Assembly: GCA_012034075.1 (NCBI GenBank)
Contig: JAAURD010000012.1
Location: forward strand, 1-46,950
Reading direction: 5' to 3'
DNA length: 46,950 nucleotides
Source of the DNA: Chloroflexaceae bacterium
GTDB lineage: Bacteria > Chloroflexota > Chloroflexia > Chloroflexales > Chloroflexaceae
Of the stretch, positions 1,887-33,568 are shown in pieces; position 1 is the stretch's first letter, and every line of letters starts with the position of its first letter. The notes under the pieces were generated by a model. That model worked only from the letters and a program-made list of their open reading frames with translations. It was not told where the DNA came from and searched no databases. The translations under genes were made by a program, and so were the position numbers.

Positions 1887-2582
1887 TCAAAAGGTGATAC
1901 GAGGGGCAGAAGCACTCAGGAGACCCTGAGTCTGTGGTGGTGTCCAGAGATCACTGATTGCCTGAGCCAGTGCGTCGATCAGAGCGGAGATGTCGGCTGT
2001 GGCTTCGTCGTGCAGGGCCTCGCTGATGATGAGTACGCGGCTGGTTTGGTCACGAACGGCCGATTGCCCGCTCTGGCGAAAAGTCCAGCGACGGGCATGG
2101 GCATGCTGCTGGGCATCAGCAAAGATGATTTCGCCCGGATCAGGGTGTTCATGGTCACCGTTGAGGGTGAGATACTCCTCGTGGCCGGTAGCGTGGCGTA
2201 TTTCAAGATACTCGGCAATCTGATCAAGGTCAAAGATAGCGACAGGCAGCGCAAAGGCCAGTGAGATGGCATTGCCCAGGTCTACCAGCGGGTGGAGCTG
2301 GGGCAGGGCCTGGTCACGACGGAAGCGGCGGAGCAAAGCTTCGGCGGCGGAGCGGTATTGGGTGGGTTTGAGGCCCATCTGGGTATAGGCCTGGCGCCAG
2401 GCACGAATGGATGGCAAGGTGGACTCGGTGGTCTGGGTGAGCCGTTCGCGAGCCTGCTGCAACCAGGGTGACTGGTGTTGGCCACTCTCGACGTGAGGAT
2501 GAATGCCATCAATGACCAGTACGCCCACAACGAGCTGGGGAAATTGGTGCCACAGGGCTTCGCTATGCTGAAGATACATCAT
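1887..2582 (-). CDS. B3/B4 tRNA-binding domain protein
   Basis: A stand-alone protein (231 aa) with the B3/B4 domain found in the beta subunit of phenylalanyl-tRNA synthetase, where it edits mischarged Tyr-tRNA. The family pattern is visible: GLKPTQYRSAAEALLRRF (mid-protein) followed by LPQLHPLVDLGNAISL, then FADAQQHAHARRW and a C-terminal ALAQAISDLW stretch. Free-standing versions are presumed to deacylate mischarged tRNA or free amino-acyl compounds, but their substrates are mostly unknown. I place the start at 2582 (a second ATG follows directly at 2579). The open frame continues upstream, but that part reads as a spurious hydrophobic extension, and a strong promoter lies across it. panE follows 29 bases downstream. 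Confidence 0.8.
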   Translation of the reverse strand: MMYLQHSEALWHQFPQLVVGVLVIDGIHPHVESGQHQSPWLQQARERLTQTTESTLPSIRAWRQAYTQMGLKPTQYRSAAEALLRRFRRDQALPQLHPLVDLGNAISLAFALPVAIFDLDQIAEYLEIRHATGHEEYLTLNGDHEHPDPGEIIFADAQQHAHARRWTFRQSGQSAVRDQTSRVLIISEALHDEATADISALIDALAQAISDLWTPPQTQGLLSASAPRITF

Positions 2583-2588
2583 GTTTCC

Positions 2589-2617
2589 ATTATACTCGCG
2601 GATGATCTGATTTGCAA
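2589..2617 (-). promoter_or_regulatory. Promoter for the B3/B4-panE unit, placed for a leaderless start
   Basis: On the minus strand TTGCAA (2617-2612) is followed after 17 bases by TATAAT (2594-2589). Only six bases (GGAAAC) separate this -10 box from the ATG at 2582, so transcription should begin on or beside the start codon. That predicts a leaderless mRNA and also fixes the start of the coding region. Confidence 0.55.
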
Positions 2618-2830
2618 ACAGCTGGACAATTGCATGGGCAGATATTGGAGGTATGCCAAGAAACAGGTATAATAAAAGCATAAGACGACCAGTACATGAC
2701 ACCACGAAATGAGAAGAGGAGTAGTCTGATGTATCTGGATTGATGCATCATTGAGAAGAGGCAGTCTCTGACTGTTTATGGTAATGCCATCGTTAAAAAA
2801 TGGTTTGAATACAGCACGGAGCAAGATGTT

Positions 2831-3403
2831 ATGCGACAATTATACCGACTGATATGGCTGATGTTGTTGGGTTTGAGCATCACGTTGGTATCATGTGGAA
2901 GTAGTACTGCAGAGCCAGCATATAGCGTTATACGGGAACCTGAGCTACAACCCGGTGACTCCATACCTGAGCCACAGGGTGAAGTGATATTGACGCTGAC
3001 GGGTAAAATCAAGAGAACCAATCAGGGAGATGAACTGGTGTTCGATATGGAGTTGTTGGAAAGCCTGGGAGTGATTGAATATACCGTCCAGAACCCTAGT
3101 CCTGAGCGTGAGCAAGCTGATACCCATCAAGGTGTTCTCCTGGAGAACCTGTTTGCTCTTGCCGAGATTGATGCCGATGCAACCAAGGCGCATGCGATTG
3201 CTTGGGATGATTATACAGTGGATATTCCTATCAGTGTGACTCAGTGGCCGGTGATGATTACAACAAGAAGAAATGGAGAACGGATTTCGTTCCATGATTT
3301 GGGACCACTGCAAGTTATCTTTCCGTATCATCGTTTTGATATTGAACCGGTGATTTATGATCCAATGTGGATACATCAAGTCCATACATTGGAGATACAG
3401 TAG
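2831..3403 (+). CDS. Lipoprotein with molybdopterin-oxidoreductase-like (sulfite oxidase) fold, likely sensor component
   Basis: A 190-residue exported lipoprotein. Residues 1-21 are a signal peptide ending in the lipobox LVSC with Cys22 as the lipidation site. The rest resembles the small sulfite-oxidase/YedY-type molybdopterin-binding fold: LTGKIKRTNQGDELVFDMELLESLG, then a VLLENLFALA segment, WDDYTVDIPIS, and the ending HDLGPLQVIFPYHRF with WIHQVHTLEI. The mature part contains no further cysteine, so the cysteine that ligates molybdenum in true oxidoreductases is missing and a catalytic role is unlikely. The stop TAG (3401-3403) abuts the ATG of the SpoIIE phosphatase gene, so the two are surely co-expressed. 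I infer a ligand- or redox-sensing partner at the outer membrane face for that phosphatase. GGAG about 9 bases before the ATG supports the start. Confidence 0.7.
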   Translation: MRQLYRLIWLMLLGLSITLVSCGSSTAEPAYSVIREPELQPGDSIPEPQGEVILTLTGKIKRTNQGDELVFDMELLESLGVIEYTVQNPSPEREQADTHQGVLLENLFALAEIDADATKAHAIAWDDYTVDIPISVTQWPVMITTRRNGERISFHDLGPLQVIFPYHRFDIEPVIYDPMWIHQVHTLEIQ

Positions 3404-5824
3404 ATGTTTTCGCGTGCCATAGTCATTCAATCCTTAATAATCATTGGTATTATGGTAGGTATAGCCGCAAGTATTGGGTTTACGCTGCAGCTTTCGCGTG
3501 TCTTAACTTCACAAAATCTGTCGCCAGGCTGGGGTGTTTGGGGACCTTATGTCAATGAACGTGAATTGATAAGCTTACATGAACTCTTATATCGGATCAA
3601 TCTGGGTGATACAGTTGATGCTGAGGTGTATGAATGGCAACGGAACCTGGTGAGGCGTCGTATCGACATTTCCTATGATTTTATGCCTGATATCCCAGCA
3701 CTCATCGATGCTGAACTGACCAATATTCGGCGTCTGGATGCGTTAATGGAAGAGTATACCGCTATCGAAGGAGGAAAAATTCCAGACCGTGAGACGGTAC
3801 AACAGTTGCTTCCGATTGTAGATGATATGGTGGTTGTCAACCGTGAGATCCTTCATACGCGGCGACAGGCCGGCGATATCGTCTATCATGATACGATCAA
3901 AGCCACTCAACAGTTACAGATCGTACAGATTGTCACGCTGGTGTTTTTTTTGATTTTGGGGATACTCTTCTTTTGGATGACGCGTAAAACGTTCAAGGCG
4001 GATATTGAGATGGTACGAGCCTATGCACGTCAATCGGAGCGTTATGCGCTACGTATTGCCGAGGTGAATCGGTTTTCACTCGTCATGAGCAGTCACCTGA
4101 ATCAGACGGAGATTCTCGATATTGCAGCACAGGAAATAGCACGACTGTTTGATATAGAGCATGTGAGCATTGTGTTATTTGATGTGCAGCAGCAGATTGG
4201 CACGCTGGTAGCAGAATACCCGCTTACGCAACTCCATGGATTGCAGATAACGCTGCCGGCTGATCCTAGCTCGCAGCAATTGCTCCATTCGGAGCAAGCG
4301 ATTGTGATTGAGGGAGCTACGACTGATCCACGCACCAGTGTGATTCACGATATTCTGGTGGCTTCGGATGTCGGTTCGTTGATGCTTGCCCCATTGCTGA
4401 ATCGGGGGTGTACTATCGGCCTTATCAGTCTGGAGAGTGTGCATCATCAGCGAACGTTTACACGCGAGGAACAGGATCTTATTGTGACCATTGCTACGGC
4501 AGTTGCAGCAGCCGTAGAGAATGCGCGACTCTTTGAAGCAGAACAGATTGCCCATATTCGCGCCGAGACGCTGGGCGAAATAGCACGGGTGATCAGTTCG
4601 TCGTTTGATTTGGATGAGGTGTTGCGGCTGATTCTGGAAGAGTTGTGTAAAGTGATTGCGTATGATAAAGCCTCGATTATGCTGCTGGACGATCATCAAA
4701 CGTTACGGGTGGCGGCGTTTCAAATCGATCATCAGCCATCGGTCAGTGTCAATGGCATAGGTCAGCAGGAATATGTGAATTTGAAACCGGGTCAGCACAG
4801 CGCCGCCCGAATTGTCCTCGAACAGAGAACGGCAATGCTCATTGATGATACACGCCTATCACTGCACTGGTTTCAGGCACAAACAACCCATGAGATTCGT
4901 TCGTGGTTGGGTGTACCTTTGCTCTTAGGCGGCAATAGCCTGGGAGTACTGAATATCAATGCATTTGAGCCACACCAATTCGATACGAATGATCTTGATG
5001 TTGCGCTGACTTTTGCGAACCATGCAGCAGTGGCGCTAGAGAAGGCGCAGTTGTATCGTGAGTCGGTGACACGAATTGAGCAAGAGATGGCAATTGCCGG
5101 TCAGATTCAGCGGCAGCTCTTTCCGCGCGCGCTGCCGCAGTTGGATGGAATAACACTTTCGGTGTTCTGCCAACCGGCTCGTGAGACCGGGGGCGATTTT
5201 TATGATGTGTTGCGTCTTAATGATGGACGTATGGGTATTATGGTGGGCGATGCATCGGGAAAGAGTATTCCGGGCGCAATGCTGATGGCAATTGCGCGTT
5301 CAACGGCGCGTTCGGCAGCGTATAATCATACTAGGTCGGAAGCGGTTGTTGCCGAAATTAACCGCTTGATTGTTGATGATGTGCCATCGTTTTCGTTTGT
5401 CGCGCTCTGTTATGCCATTTTTCATTTGGGGAGCGCCTCGCTCGCATTGAGTAATGCAGGGCAACTGTCACCGATTGTGCGCCGTGCTGATGGGTCATTG
5501 GAGTATCTTGAAATGCACGGACCAACGTTGCCGCTGGGAATGGTGATGGACGTTGCGTACCAATCAATCGAATGCCAACTTGCGACGGGTGATACCGTGA
5601 TTTTTTATACCGATGGTGTGGTCGAGGCGCAGACGGGCGATCATCAATTGTTTGGATTTGAACGGTGGGAAGGGTTGATCCGCCAGTATGGTCATCTGCC
5701 GCCACAGGCGTTTATTGAACGGGTGAACCAGGAGATTGCCGATTTTGTTGGTAGTGTACCGCAACATGATGATATCACGCTGCTGGTGTTACGGGTCGAT
5801 GAACTGCCTGGGCCTGTGCACTGA
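3404..5824 (+). CDS. Membrane-bound GAF-GAF-SpoIIE (PP2C) serine phosphatase
   Basis: An 806-residue signalling phosphatase of the RsbU/SpoIIE type, expected to dephosphorylate an anti-anti-sigma (STAS) protein. Membrane helices lie at about 7-30 and 172-193, enclosing a roughly 140-residue extracytoplasmic helical sensor rich in paired Glu/Arg. Two GAF domains follow (about 225-370 and 395-545), joined by helical linkers, then a short coiled coil and the PP2C domain (about 575-800). Metal-binding motifs of the phosphatase are intact: GGDFYDVLRLNDGR, MVGDASGKSIPGAMLMA, FYTDGVVEA and QHDDITLLVL. The gene starts immediately after the stop of the lipoprotein gene, and the extracytoplasmic loop is the natural contact for that protein. 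No STAS or kinase partner is encoded in the window, so the downstream target is elsewhere. Confidence 0.87.
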   Translation: MFSRAIVIQSLIIIGIMVGIAASIGFTLQLSRVLTSQNLSPGWGVWGPYVNERELISLHELLYRINLGDTVDAEVYEWQRNLVRRRIDISYDFMPDIPALIDAELTNIRRLDALMEEYTAIEGGKIPDRETVQQLLPIVDDMVVVNREILHTRRQAGDIVYHDTIKATQQLQIVQIVTLVFFLILGILFFWMTRKTFKADIEMVRAYARQSERYALRIAEVNRFSLVMSSHLNQTEILDIAAQEIARLFDIEHVSIVLFDVQQQIGTLVAEYPLTQLHGLQITLPADPSSQQLLHSEQAIVIEGATTDPRTSVIHDILVASDVGSLMLAPLLNRGCTIGLISLESVHHQRTFTREEQDLIVTIATAVAAAVENARLFEAEQIAHIRAETLGEIARVISSSFDLDEVLRLILEELCKVIAYDKASIMLLDDHQTLRVAAFQIDHQPSVSVNGIGQQEYVNLKPGQHSAARIVLEQRTAMLIDDTRLSLHWFQAQTTHEIRSWLGVPLLLGGNSLGVLNINAFEPHQFDTNDLDVALTFANHAAVALEKAQLYRESVTRIEQEMAIAGQIQRQLFPRALPQLDGITLSVFCQPARETGGDFYDVLRLNDGRMGIMVGDASGKSIPGAMLMAIARSTARSAAYNHTRSEAVVAEINRLIVDDVPSFSFVALCYAIFHLGSASLALSNAGQLSPIVRRADGSLEYLEMHGPTLPLGMVMDVAYQSIECQLATGDTVIFYTDGVVEAQTGDHQLFGFERWEGLIRQYGHLPPQAFIERVNQEIADFVGSVPQHDDITLLVLRVDELPGPVH

Positions 5825-6016
5825 CCTTGACTGCTCCTCAGTAGGTGGATAGGTTGTTTTTTCCTCTTGCCTGAATCCTGTTCTTGTATCTGAAGTGATG
5901 TAACGTTCTGCTGGATACTTGCATCCAAGGCATAGAACAATAAAAACCTGGGCAAGTGGTGCAACAGGTGCAAAATGGATCATCACTCAATAGACAAAAG
6001 CAGGAGGAAAAGAGAA

Positions 6017-7297
6017 ATGGTTCGTCATATGACCCGTCTGGTCACGTTGAAAAAGGATTTGGGAGAGTCATACACACCGGTCTATTTTCTGGCCGCTTTA
6101 GGGAATGGTGGCATGGCGGTTGCCTTCTTTATCTATCTGAACTTTATGGTGCCGCATCCCAACACGCCGATTATCACCTTTGATGGCCTGGCAGCGTTTA
6201 TGAGTGGGGCAACCTTGCCAATTCAACTGCTTATTCTGGGGGCAATGGCTGGTATTCTGTTTTTTGGTATTCGTCACTTCTGGTTACTGGCCTGGAATTT
6301 GCGTGAATATCGGGCCTATCGTCAGACCTTGGCGTATCAGGCGCTGCGTCAGGGCAATCATGAGATCAAGCTGATCGGGGTGCCGTTGGCGCTGGCAATG
6401 ACAGTGAATATGAGCTTTGCAGCCGGGGCGGCCTTTATACCGGGCCTGTGGAATATCGTTGAGTATCTTTTTCCCGTGGCAATGGTGGCCTTTCTGATTA
6501 TCGGTCTGTTTGCGCTGTCGATCTTTCTCTCGTTCTTTAGCCGGGTGCTGGCGGGAGCACAGTTTGATTGCAGCCACAACAATAATCTGGGGCAGCTCAA
6601 GGCGGTGCTGACGTTTGGCCTGGTGGCGGTTGGTTTTGCGGCCCCAGCGGCCATGAGCGAGAACACGGTGACGGTTGCCGCCAGTATCATTGGCAGCCTG
6701 TTCTTTATGAGCGTGGCAATGGTGCTGGGGCTGATCCTGTTTATTCTGGGCTTCCGCAGTATGTTGGCCCATGGGTTGACCCGTGAGAGCAGTGTGAGCC
6801 TGTGGATCCCGTTGCCTATTTTGACGGTGCTGGCAGTGGCGGTTATCCGCCAGGTGAATGGTCTGACCTTTCTGTTTGGCGTGCCGGAAGGCGCGGTGAA
6901 TACGCTCGCGATACGCACGCAGTCATCACCCGCTTTGATGCTGGTGTTAATCACCTTTGTACTGGCCTTGCAGATTCTGTTTGCAGTGCTGGGGTATGCG
7001 GTGATGCGACGGGTGAATTACTTTCGGACATTTGTCTCTGGGCCGGAGCGCAGCGTTGATAGTTATGCAATGATCTGTCCTGGTACGGCCCTGTTTGTCT
7101 TTGGGATGTTCTTTATCCACCTTGGTCTGGTGCGGACGGGCCTGTTGACCAAATTCTCGGTTGAGTATTTTGTGCTGCTTGTTCCGTTTGTGGCATCGCA
7201 GATCTTTGCTATCCGTACCATGCTGAGGCTGGATCGCAAATTGCTCAAGCCAGAGCCGGTGACACAGACAAGCACGCCAACGGCAGCAGTGGCATAA
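6017..7297 (+). CDS. Polytopic membrane protein, tentatively TsoY-like
   Basis: A 426-residue integral membrane protein with roughly ten hydrophobic helices spread over its length and a short Thr/Pro/Ala-rich tail. The start at 6017 is set by a full AGGAGG at 6002-6007, nine bases upstream; an in-frame ATG at 5975 has no such site and would place the Shine-Dalgarno inside the gene. Motifs such as LGNGGMAVAFFIYLNFMVPHP near the N-terminus (about residues 28-48) and ICPGTALFVFGMFFIHLGLV near the C-terminus recall the TsoY family, some members of which carry selenocysteine; here the residue before PGTA is an ordinary cysteine. That assignment is from memory and unverified; a transporter or tellurite-resistance-like permease is the fallback. 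It is followed by a clear terminator and is probably monocistronic. Confidence 0.6.
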   Translation: MVRHMTRLVTLKKDLGESYTPVYFLAALGNGGMAVAFFIYLNFMVPHPNTPIITFDGLAAFMSGATLPIQLLILGAMAGILFFGIRHFWLLAWNLREYRAYRQTLAYQALRQGNHEIKLIGVPLALAMTVNMSFAAGAAFIPGLWNIVEYLFPVAMVAFLIIGLFALSIFLSFFSRVLAGAQFDCSHNNNLGQLKAVLTFGLVAVGFAAPAAMSENTVTVAASIIGSLFFMSVAMVLGLILFILGFRSMLAHGLTRESSVSLWIPLPILTVLAVAVIRQVNGLTFLFGVPEGAVNTLAIRTQSSPALMLVLITFVLALQILFAVLGYAVMRRVNYFRTFVSGPERSVDSYAMICPGTALFVFGMFFIHLGLVRTGLLTKFSVEYFVLLVPFVASQIFAIRTMLRLDRKLLKPEPVTQTSTPTAAVA

Positions 7298-12847: not shown

Positions 12848-12887
12848 GCAGTGAATCGCACAAGAAAGTGAGCATAGGAGGACAGAG

Positions 12888-13211
12888 ATGGGTGAATCCA
12901 AAACGTATGCCCGTTCACAAGCATTATTTGCCGAAGCACAGAAGGTTCTGCCGGGTGGTGTGAACTCGCCAGTACGTGCATTTCGCGGTGTAGGTGGCAA
13001 CCCGCTCTTTATTGAGCGCGGCTCAGGGTGCTACATGTGGGATGCCGATGGTCACCGTTATATCGATTATGTCTGTTCGTGGGGGCCGCTTATTCTTGGT
13101 CATGCGCACCCGGCGGTGGTCGAAGCACTCAACCGACAGGCAGCCCTGGGCACCAGTTTTGGTGCCCCTACCAAACTGGAAACCCAACTGGCCGAAATGG
13201 TCATGACCTGA
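12888..13211 (+). CDS. hemL: Glutamate-1-semialdehyde 2,1-aminomutase, N-terminal part (frame-broken hemL)
   Basis: The first 107 residues of the PLP enzyme that isomerises glutamate-1-semialdehyde to 5-aminolevulinate. AGGAGG stands directly before the ATG. The translation matches the start of HemL ([68 protein letters not shown]) and ends abruptly at TGA 13209-13211, where the family continues. The rest is found one frame over, starting at the overlapping ATG 13211. Reading the last C of ACC twice, or restoring ACCCTGATG from ACCTGATG, rejoins the two parts to a normal 446-residue enzyme. Confidence 0.85.
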
Positions 13212-14227
13212 TGCCAGGGGTCGAACAGGTACGCTTTGTCAATAGCGGTACCGAAGCGACGATGAGTGCGCTGCGATTGGCCCGCGCCTACACCGGCCGC
13301 GATAAGATTGTGAAATTCAGCGGGTGCTACCACGGTCACGCCGATATGCTGCTGGTGCAGGCGGGTAGCGGTGTGGTCACGCTCGGTCTCCCCGATAGCC
13401 CAGGTGTACCCGCATCCACCACAGCGCAAACCCTGGTAGCCGAGTACAACGACCTTGAGGGCGTCCGGGCGCTCTTTGCCGAACACGGCAGTGATATTGC
13501 TGCGGTGATTACCGAGCCAATCGCGGCCAATATGGGGTTTGTTTTGCCCCAGGAGGGCTTTCTGGCTGGTCTGCGTGCTATTACCCGCGAATATGGAGCA
13601 CTGCTGATCCTCGATGAAGTGATGACCGGCTTTCGGGTCGCACCGAATGGGGCACAGGGTCTCTGGGGAATCGACCCAGATATAAGCTGCCTGGGCAAAG
13701 TGATCGGTGGCGGTCTCCCAGTCGGTGCCTATGTGGGTAAACGTGAGGTTATGCAAAAGGTCGCGCCAGCCGGTCCCATGTACCAGGCGGGCACCCTTTC
13801 GGGCAATCCTCTGGCAATGGTTGCAGGTCTGGTAACACTGGAACATCTCAGTCAACCCGGCCTGTTCGACCAGATTGCCGCACGGGCTGCCAGATTGGCC
13901 GATGGCCTTACGTCGGCGGCAACGGAAGCGGGTATTCCGGTGCAAGTGGGACAGGTCGGTACCATGTTCGGTTGCTACTTCCTGCAGGAAGCGGCAGTAG
14001 ACTTGCCCCAGCCGTCCCTCACCAATTACACCACCGTGCGTCAGTATGCCCACCCAGAGCGCTATGCGCAGTTCTTCTGGGCCATGCTTGAGCGTGGTGT
14101 CTATTTTGCGCCATCCCAATTTGAAGCCGCTTTCTTGAGCCTGGCGCATAGCGATGACGATATTGAAACAACCATTCAGGCCGCCCGTGAGGTGCTGGCG
14201 GTTCTGACATCAGGAGAAGCCGCATGA
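13211..14227 (+). CDS. hemL: Glutamate-1-semialdehyde 2,1-aminomutase, C-terminal part (frame-broken hemL)
   Basis: The remaining 338 residues of Hem[25 protein letters not shown], the YHGHADMLL loop, [12 protein letters not shown] with the PLP-contacting Asp, and [17 protein letters not shown] containing the Schiff-base lysine. All catalytic parts are therefore on this fragment and undamaged, with no other disruption. Its ATG overlaps the premature stop in a TGATG junction, so reinitiation on the same mRNA is conceivable, but a half without the N-terminal domain would be unusual. Because no alternative route to aminolevulinate is visible, a functional single protein is expected. The gene ends in an ATGA overlap with hemN. 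Confidence 0.85.
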
Positions 14228-32003: not shown

Positions 32004-32963
32004 TTGAGCACAGAAACGGGAGAGAAATTGGCATCATTGCAGAAAGAACCACTTCGTTCAGCGTATGAAGTGATTGTCATTGGTTCTGGCATTGGTGGGC
32101 TTACGGCAGCAAGTCTGCTGGCCGCACGCGGGAAAGATGTGCTGGTGCTAGAGCAGCACTATCTGCCTGGTGGTTCAGCACAGACATTTCCCTATCGTCA
32201 GTATCGCTTTGATGTTGGGCCAAAGCTCTTTTTTGGGATGGATGGCTCACGCGGAAACATGCGTTATCATCAGCAGGTGTTCGATGAAATCGGTGAATAT
32301 CCGGAACTGAGCTATTATGATACCTACTACAGCTTTCTCCATCCGCGTGGTGTGCTTCGCGTGACGGGTTCGGTTGAAGCATATATTGATCAACTGGTTG
32401 CTGCATTTCCCGACGATGAGCCAGGCATTCGGCAGTTTTATGCCGTTCTGGAAGAGCTGCATAGCCTCTTTATGGAATTTCCCAATTTTCCCCTCGACTC
32501 GACGAGTGGCGTGATGAGCACGGTGTTGCAAGCTCGACCGGATAAACTGGCACGGCTGATCTACTGGTCCTTTGTGCCCCTCGGAAAACTGTTTGATCGG
32601 CACATTCGCAGTCGTGAGTTACGTGCTATTATTAACGCCGAGTTTGTTGCCTTTTGTTATTCGGATATTGATGATGCCCCGGCCGTGCTGGCAGCGCTCG
32701 TGCTGATAGAACGCCATAAAGGGGGCGGCGCCTTTACCAAAGGCGGCAGTGGCGAACTGGCACGACTTCTGGTTCGCGGTCTCCAGAAACATGGTGGTCG
32801 AATCCAATATCGCACCATGGTTCAGCGCATTATCATTCAAAATGGCCAGGCCAGAGGGGTTGAGTTAACAAACGGCGAAGTCATCTGGGCCGATTATATC
32901 ATCTCGAATGCGGGAGTGGTCAATACGTTTGGCCGTACCGGTACCAATGTACCAGTATGGTAG
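32004..32963 (+). CDS. FAD-dependent oxidoreductase of the carotenoid isomerase/desaturase type, N-terminal part (frame-broken)
   Basis: The first 319 residues of a protein in the CrtI/CrtISO/retinol-saturase-like family. The FAD Rossmann motif is EVIVIGSGIGGLTAASLLA followed by VLVLEQHYLPGGSAQTF; the second dinucleotide-binding region FTKGGSGELARLL and the NGEVIWADYIISNAG strand lie near the end. No ATG precedes the FAD motif in frame; the best start is TTG at 32004 with AGGAG 11 bases upstream. The frame closes at TAG 32961-32963 in the middle of the fold, and the family continues in the next frame. Adding one G (TGGG for TGG just before TAG) reads PVWVDRYWLKP and restores a 521-residue protein. 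Confidence 0.78.
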   Translation: MSTETGEKLASLQKEPLRSAYEVIVIGSGIGGLTAASLLAARGKDVLVLEQHYLPGGSAQTFPYRQYRFDVGPKLFFGMDGSRGNMRYHQQVFDEIGEYPELSYYDTYYSFLHPRGVLRVTGSVEAYIDQLVAAFPDDEPGIRQFYAVLEELHSLFMEFPNFPLDSTSGVMSTVLQARPDKLARLIYWSFVPLGKLFDRHIRSRELRAIINAEFVAFCYSDIDDAPAVLAALVLIERHKGGGAFTKGGSGELARLLVRGLQKHGGRIQYRTMVQRIIIQNGQARGVELTNGEVIWADYIISNAGVVNTFGRTGTNVPVW

Positions 32964-33568
32964 ATCGGTACTGGCTCAAACCGGCCACCCGTAAAAAGGT
33001 CGATACACTCAAACTCACCGATTCGTTTTTTACCATCTTTGCCGGTGTTGACGCCAATGTCTTCCCGCCTGATACCGATGCCCATGTTCTCTATATGGAT
33101 CAATATTACCAGAGTGTTCGTGATTTGCGCCTGATCTGTTTTTGCAATTCATCCTTTAAAGATGCGAAATTAGCACCGCCAGGCAAACATGCCTTACAGA
33201 TTGTTTATTTTGATCCATTAAGTAATGAATATGCCAGTTGGCGACGTGATGAATACTACGCAACCCGTAAACAAGCGATGTTTGATCGGGCCATGACGAT
33301 GGCTGAAGAGGTCTTCCCAGGTATCATCGATTCATTGGATTATACCATCTGCGGAACACCACTGACTTATGCCGATTACCTGGCCAAGTGGGGTGGAGGT
33401 TGGGGCGCACAGATGACGATCGATCAGTTTGCTTTCAATCGATTTCAAAACAAGACAGATATTCGCCATCTCTTTCTTGTTGGGGCTGATACCCACCCTG
33501 GTATTGGCGTTGTCAGTGTCACGATGAGCGGAATCAACTGTGCATACCATATCGCGCCGCCTCGATAA
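32957..33568 (+). CDS. FAD-dependent oxidoreductase of the carotenoid isomerase/desaturase type, C-terminal part (frame-broken)
   Basis: The 203-residue remainder. It holds the substrate-domain part DSFFTIFAGVDANVFPPDTDAH (split here), QIVYFDPLSNEYASW and the C-terminal FAD-contact motif LFLVGADTHPGIGVVSVTMSG, which is diagnostic for the carotenoid isomerase/retinol saturase group. It has an ATG overlapping the upstream stop by seven bases but no ribosome site of its own, so it is a continuation and not an independent gene. Substrate is unknown; a polyene or lipid is plausible. The DUF547 gene follows 39 bases downstream. Confidence 0.78.
   Translation: MVDRYWLKPATRKKVDTLKLTDSFFTIFAGVDANVFPPDTDAHVLYMDQYYQSVRDLRLICFCNSSFKDAKLAPPGKHALQIVYFDPLSNEYASWRRDEYYATRKQAMFDRAMTMAEEVFPGIIDSLDYTICGTPLTYADYLAKWGGGWGAQMTIDQFAFNRFQNKTDIRHLFLVGADTHPGIGVVSVTMSGINCAYHIAPPR

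Follow-up and report, generated by a model that had tools for sequence, protein, structure and literature searches.

A PruR-homologous lipoprotein paired with a membrane SpoIIE/PP2C phosphatase in Chloroflexota

A probable two-gene receptor of the PruR kind

Two adjoining genes in a 46,950-nt stretch of Chloroflexaceae DNA (hereafter, the window), encoding a lipoprotein and a membrane phosphatase, probably constitute a single receptor of the PruR kind, in which a pterin-binding lipoprotein would dock on the phosphatase and switch its SpoIIE/PP2C domain, the most likely target being a STAS protein. Both halves are homologous to those of the PruR/DcpA receptor, the catalytic motifs of the phosphatase are intact, and the pairing of the two genes is invariable within the order Chloroflexales. 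As described in a 2026 review, PruR is a periplasmic protein with a sulfite-oxidase fold that lacks the molybdenum-binding cysteine, has reduced pterins as its ligands and acts on DcpA at its outer part (PMC13259868). Pterin signalling through PruR is described there only in Pseudomonadota, where it involves c-di-GMP enzymes or histidine kinases (PMC13259868). The initial annotation had suggested that a pairing of such a domain with a PP2C phosphatase may be new, and this arrangement is indeed undescribed in the review (PMC13259868). Judged against that review, and within our sample of Pseudomonadota and Chloroflexota, PP2C and STAS are outputs new to PruR-type receptors, and Chloroflexota is likewise new as their phylum. 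A literature search found no paper on pterin binding together with SpoIIE, or on pterins together with partner switching. The features of the locus are as follows.

2831..3403, forward strand: PruR-homologous lipoprotein of 190 aa, with the lipobox LVSC including Cys22, and with Asp126, Tyr128, Trp180 and His182
3404..5824, forward strand: membrane PP2C phosphatase of 806 aa with the order TM1, sensor, TM2, GAF, GAF, SpoIIE (from Pfam, hydrophobicity and structure prediction)
3494..3916, forward strand: predicted extracytoplasmic four-helix sensor domain of the phosphatase (residues 31-171), DcpA/DTB-type, with W46-x7-E54
5081..5797, forward strand: SpoIIE/PP2C catalytic region of the phosphatase (Pfam match to residues 607-798)
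3391..3403, forward strand: putative Shine-Dalgarno box GGAG and the lipoprotein stop codon abutting the phosphatase ATG (from the sequence and inference)

Both open reading frames were confirmed as adjoining, in agreement with the initial annotation: the TAG stop codon of the lipoprotein gene occupies positions 3401-3403 and the ATG of the phosphatase gene begins at 3404. The GGAG box lies inside the lipoprotein gene, 9 nt before this ATG, and the layout of the junction suggests that the two genes are likely to be translationally coupled.

The lipoprotein and its ligand pocket

With its hydrophobic N-terminus, its lipobox and its length, the lipoprotein resembles PruR proteins, which have an N-terminal export signal and about 170 aa. 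A phmmer search against the PDB matched it to the solved PruR proteins from Klebsiella (7rkb, with neopterin; E 1.5e-18) and Agrobacterium (7kos; E 9e-14), and a seven-sequence profile recovered PruR among the solved structures at E 5e-32 and 1e-29, whereas the best sulfite oxidase reached 1.6e-4. The best seven Foldseek matches of the predicted model are all PruR structures as well; the model is of low confidence (pLDDT 46) because the alignment is shallow, and the fold assignment rests mainly on the sequence profiles. Sequence, profile and fold all identify the lipoprotein as a homologue of PruR with a SUOX-type fold closest to the solved PruR proteins, as the sulfite-oxidase-type fold proposed in the initial annotation had anticipated. 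Since it is homologous to 7kos and 7rkb, we know which class of ligand its relatives bind. Many further matches across the phylum, at E values of 1e-7 to 1e-11, were taken as sulfite-oxidase-type proteins.

The sole cysteine of the lipoprotein is the lipid-anchor Cys22, i.e., a molybdenum-ligating cysteine is absent, as had been noted from the outset. This bears on the scenario of an active molybdenum enzyme whose gene precedes that of the phosphatase by happenstance. Such an enzyme would agree with the weak PF00174 match of the lipoprotein, which scores 18.2 bits against a Pfam cut-off of 24 bits, but the lack of any cysteine beyond the anchor, the scores of the PruR structures, far above those of any sulfite oxidase, and the invariable pairing with a sensor make it scarcely credible, and it was rejected.

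Of the 11 PruR homologues from Chloroflexota, 10 have a lipobox, which a simple motif detects in no more than 3 of the 36 remaining aligned sequences. Chloroflexota cells are generally regarded as having no classical outer membrane, and a lipoprotein version of the receptor would suit such cells.

The pocket residues were compared with those of Agrobacterium PruR, equivalence being set by the chain offset, in an alignment of 47 homologues (36 from outside Chloroflexota and 11 from Chloroflexota). Tyr128 corresponds to Tyr104, a pterin-contacting tyrosine, which is thus kept, whereas His182 replaces the pterin-contacting Trp160, a change from TGG to CAT that takes three base changes. A tryptophan stands at this position in 46 of the 47 sequences, including all 36 from outside Chloroflexota and 10 of the 11 from Chloroflexota, the window protein being the sole exception. 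Trp160 has been described as mostly conserved (PMC13259868), and hence it is not strictly defining for PruR. Because of the replacement by His182, binding of the usual ligand by this lipoprotein is not assured, and its specificity may differ from that of its PruR relatives. The natural Trp160-to-His variant, set against its Trp-bearing relatives, makes the ligand question testable.

The same receptor architecture might accordingly serve a changed ligand, with a pocket formed by His182, Asp126 and Trp180 that takes up a different pterin or some other small molecule. In addition to the histidine that is unique in the alignment, Asp126 would agree with such a change, since it occupies the position of Asn102, where Asp is found in 7 of the 47 homologues and where, according to the review, a swap to Asp may alter pterin specificity (PMC13259868). 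On the other hand, Tyr128 and the remaining core motifs are kept, and Trp180, which is invariant in Chloroflexota and lies two residues from His182, could substitute for the missing tryptophan. We regard a changed ligand as unlikely, and a pterin of the kind bound by PruR as the preferred reading.

The phosphatase and its sensor domain

Two hydrophobic stretches of the phosphatase, centred at roughly residues 5-29 and 171-193, bracket some 140 residues that lie outside the membrane, which matches the size of the extracytoplasmic sensor in the initial annotation. This sensor is predicted to fold as a bundle of four helices flanked by two long membrane helices, with a mean pLDDT of 80 over residues 1-215 and values above 90 across most of the outer helices. 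On the cytoplasmic side, Pfam recognizes two GAF domains and a SpoIIE domain (E 5e-46) in which the metal-binding Asp motifs of PF07228 are intact; the catalytic motifs are GGDFYD at residue 596, VGDASGKS at 614, FYTDGVVE at 734 and HDDIT at 788. The best family match of the phosphatase is NCBIfam SiaA, yet at 61 bits against an equivalog cut-off of 700 bits, and the nearest solved relative of its catalytic domain is 6k4e (E 1.2e-14), which we take to be SiaA. SiaA from Pseudomonas aeruginosa, a member of the SiaABCD partner switch, resembles the window protein as a signal-responsive PP2C phosphatase, the comparison covering the catalytic domain. It dephosphorylates SiaC, which resembles anti-sigma-factor antagonists, and a PruR partner goes unmentioned in the available part of that source (PMC7647112).

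The hallmark of the DcpA-type domain is the motif WX7E, carried in Pseudomonadota by the membrane protein whose gene follows pruR; in Agrobacterium, PruR binds the periplasmic part of DcpA (PMC13259868). The window sensor possesses this motif as W46-GPYVNER-E54. Its tryptophan is present in 43 of the 44 aligned sensors, the glutamate being less constant. When six Chloroflexota sensors were aligned by hhalign with 34 Pseudomonadota partners, the probability reached 97 over the full region; for the outer part by itself it was 91, with a score of 40.4 as compared with control maxima of 15.7 in 100 column shuffles and 21.6 in 100 shuffles of seven-column blocks. A sensor profile built from Pseudomonadota outer domains only was run over 983 open reading frames from all loci and recovered three Chloroflexota partners (E 2.7e-5, 4e-4 and 1e-3), which rank after the Pseudomonadota partners themselves and above the best unrelated frame (E 0.12). 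The window sensor has no direct match to this profile and is tied in via close relatives. At 37 further PruR loci outside its training, the profile located the sensor in the gene directly after pruR in 34 cases and one gene further in one case. In Pseudomonadota, distances among PruR proteins are correlated with distances among their partners (r 0.65, Mantel p 0.0005), although shared ancestry alone could give such a correlation. These profile comparisons show remote homology between the phosphatase outer domain and the DcpA/DTB domain on which PruR docks, the window protein being included through its close relatives.

A search of solved structures with the sensor profile yielded no match below E 0.01. 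In fold comparisons the sensor matched generic helical bundles, and thus no named fold is claimed for it. Among these weak matches is the QseG-QseE complex of Enterobacteriaceae (Foldseek E 0.08, with a Z of 10.7 that is usual for unrelated helical bundles), a solved lipoprotein-sensor complex in which a lipoprotein likewise targets a membrane signal transducer at its outer domain, QseG activating the histidine kinase QseE by direct contact (PMC12691602, available part). It provides a precedent for a lipoprotein that would act as a ligand-free structural accessory and hold the phosphatase in one state. QseG is a different lipoprotein, its partner has a kinase output, and a small-molecule ligand goes unmentioned in the available part of that source (PMC12691602). 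In contrast, the lipoprotein family studied here has solved pterin complexes, and the equivalent of Tyr104 and most pocket motifs are kept, so that a purely structural role appears improbable and a ligand-binding receptor is preferred.

The receptor shares with PruR-DcpA of Agrobacterium tumefaciens and its relatives in Pseudomonadota a homologous pterin-binding-fold protein, a WX7E outer domain and the position of the receptor gene in front. It differs in having a PP2C output rather than GGDEF-EAL, a lipoprotein as receptor, a histidine in place of Trp160, and a different phylum of origin. The PruR-DTB pairs of Pseudomonadota, with histidine kinases of the TorS/BaeS type, show the same kind of outer domain and a gene pair with a swapped cytoplasmic output, which is a kinase there and a phosphatase here. 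Since its output is SpoIIE instead of GGDEF-EAL or a histidine kinase, the phosphatase is not a DcpA or DTB protein.

Conservation of the gene pair and its outputs

Within the order Chloroflexales, the lipoprotein was found in 10 of 82 genomes, all of which have a matching sensor gene directly downstream, at a distance of -1 to 15 nt; the conserved co-occurrence that the initial annotation had proposed to look for is thus present in every lipoprotein-bearing genome of the order. The reverse search with the sensor in 61 relatives returned the same ten genomes, one extra copy in Herpetosiphon aurantiacus and one weak match to a protein-kinase-like reading frame (L138), which was judged to be a chance hit, as was a weak lipoprotein match in Herpetosiphon (L021). 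The extra copy (L137, 4074-5228, reverse strand) is a second H. aurantiacus sensor protein with a STAS-type tail by similarity and a WX7-type motif, and no lipoprotein gene adjoins it.

As demonstrated by tblastn with the window genes, the lipoprotein-sensor pair is the sole part common to the compared loci, while their flanks differ. That two independently acting genes are joined here by chance or by a shared promoter is a general possibility only, and a most improbable one, since in the order the lipoprotein never occurs without the sensor, across differing neighbourhoods and with three output domains. The view of the initial annotation that the two genes form a two-part receptor with a retired enzyme fold as ligand sensor thus stands as far as a conserved two-gene receptor is concerned; what it left unnamed is the family, PruR, a known pterin binder.

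The outputs in the ten genomes are SpoIIE in three, STAS in six (Herpetosiphon) and a HisKA_3 kinase in one (L019). The GAF-SpoIIE form is found in the window, in L012 and in L020, where it is split into two open reading frames in a draft assembly. STAS was assigned in one of the six Herpetosiphon-type genomes by Pfam and in the other five by the same 379-aa protein. Among 73 PruR-linked partners from Pseudomonadota (34 and 39 from two alignments, four of them plasmid-borne), Pfam detected neither SpoIIE nor STAS; their outputs are HisKA/HATPase and GGDEF/EAL. The diguanylate-cyclase pairings cited as known in the initial annotation do exist as GGDEF-EAL pairings, but this account was too narrow: histidine kinases are also partners of PruR, and in the Pseudomonadota sample they are commoner than GGDEF/EAL. 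If correct, the PP2C and STAS outputs of Chloroflexota would mark the receptor as an input module, either old or mobile, that serves several types of output.

Several further PruR-like genes were observed. In a distant Chloroflexota genome (L057, 4191-5576, forward strand), a PruR-like lipoprotein goes together with a histidine kinase as well as a receiver-like gene, the sensor being without the motif tryptophan. A marine metagenome-assembled genome has a PruR homologue with no adjoining sensor gene (L027, 5860-6441, forward strand), and at L099 (2-1510, forward strand) the PruR homology lies inside an open frame of 502 aa, possibly a fusion or a misread start. Among plasmids, 586 records encode a PruR-similar protein (PruR or sulfite-oxidase-type), 263 of them from Klebsiella.

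Proposed signalling pathway

In the proposed mechanism, the PruR-homologous lipoprotein, located on the outer side of the cytoplasmic membrane, would bind a small, probably reduced, pterin and, once loaded, would dock on the outer four-helix bundle of the phosphatase. The signal would pass from this domain through TM2 and the GAF domains and switch the SpoIIE/PP2C domain, which would most likely dephosphorylate an anti-sigma-factor antagonist of the STAS type within a partner-switching pathway. The ligand, the docking, a switch in one direction or the other (on or off) and the STAS target are all suggested by analogy with known systems. Phosphorylated STAS proteins are the usual substrates of SpoIIE-type phosphatases, and the presence of STAS directly on the same sensor in Herpetosiphon points to the same partner-switching pathway.

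The genome contains several small RsbW-type kinase genes and 51 STAS matches that include small stand-alone proteins, and therefore candidate members for such a pathway exist; the window itself showed neither a STAS nor an anti-sigma gene. The genome also has folE, encoding GTP cyclohydrolase I, and a search for a PruA-type pteridine reductase gave matches below the cut-off only, as in most control genomes. As a tentative generalization, for which we see nearly as much chance of holding as of failing, PruR-kind receptors in Chloroflexales may feed partner switching and not c-di-GMP, with a phosphatase entry in Chloroflexaceae-type genomes and a STAS entry in Herpetosiphon. If the partner-switching reading is true, extracellular pterins would set the activity of sigma factors or similar proteins.

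Neighbouring genes in the window

Downstream of the phosphatase gene, between it and hemA, lies a gene for a TsoY-family membrane protein (5975-7297, forward strand; NCBIfam NF047644, E 8.5e-136), which does not stand beside the lipoprotein-sensor pair in the relatives compared. A hemL-like reading at about 12850-14227 (forward strand) shifts frame near 13200, its N-terminal part being in another frame, which indicates an assembly error or a broken gene. A carotenoid-desaturase-like FAD protein (32004-33568, forward strand) is divided between two open reading frames that overlap around 32957-32963, a probable frameshift. Finally, a B3/4-domain protein (1887-2705, reverse strand), whose domain is also found in PheT, is encoded divergently from the lipoprotein-phosphatase pair, and its gene overlaps a ketopantoate reductase-like gene by 4 nt.
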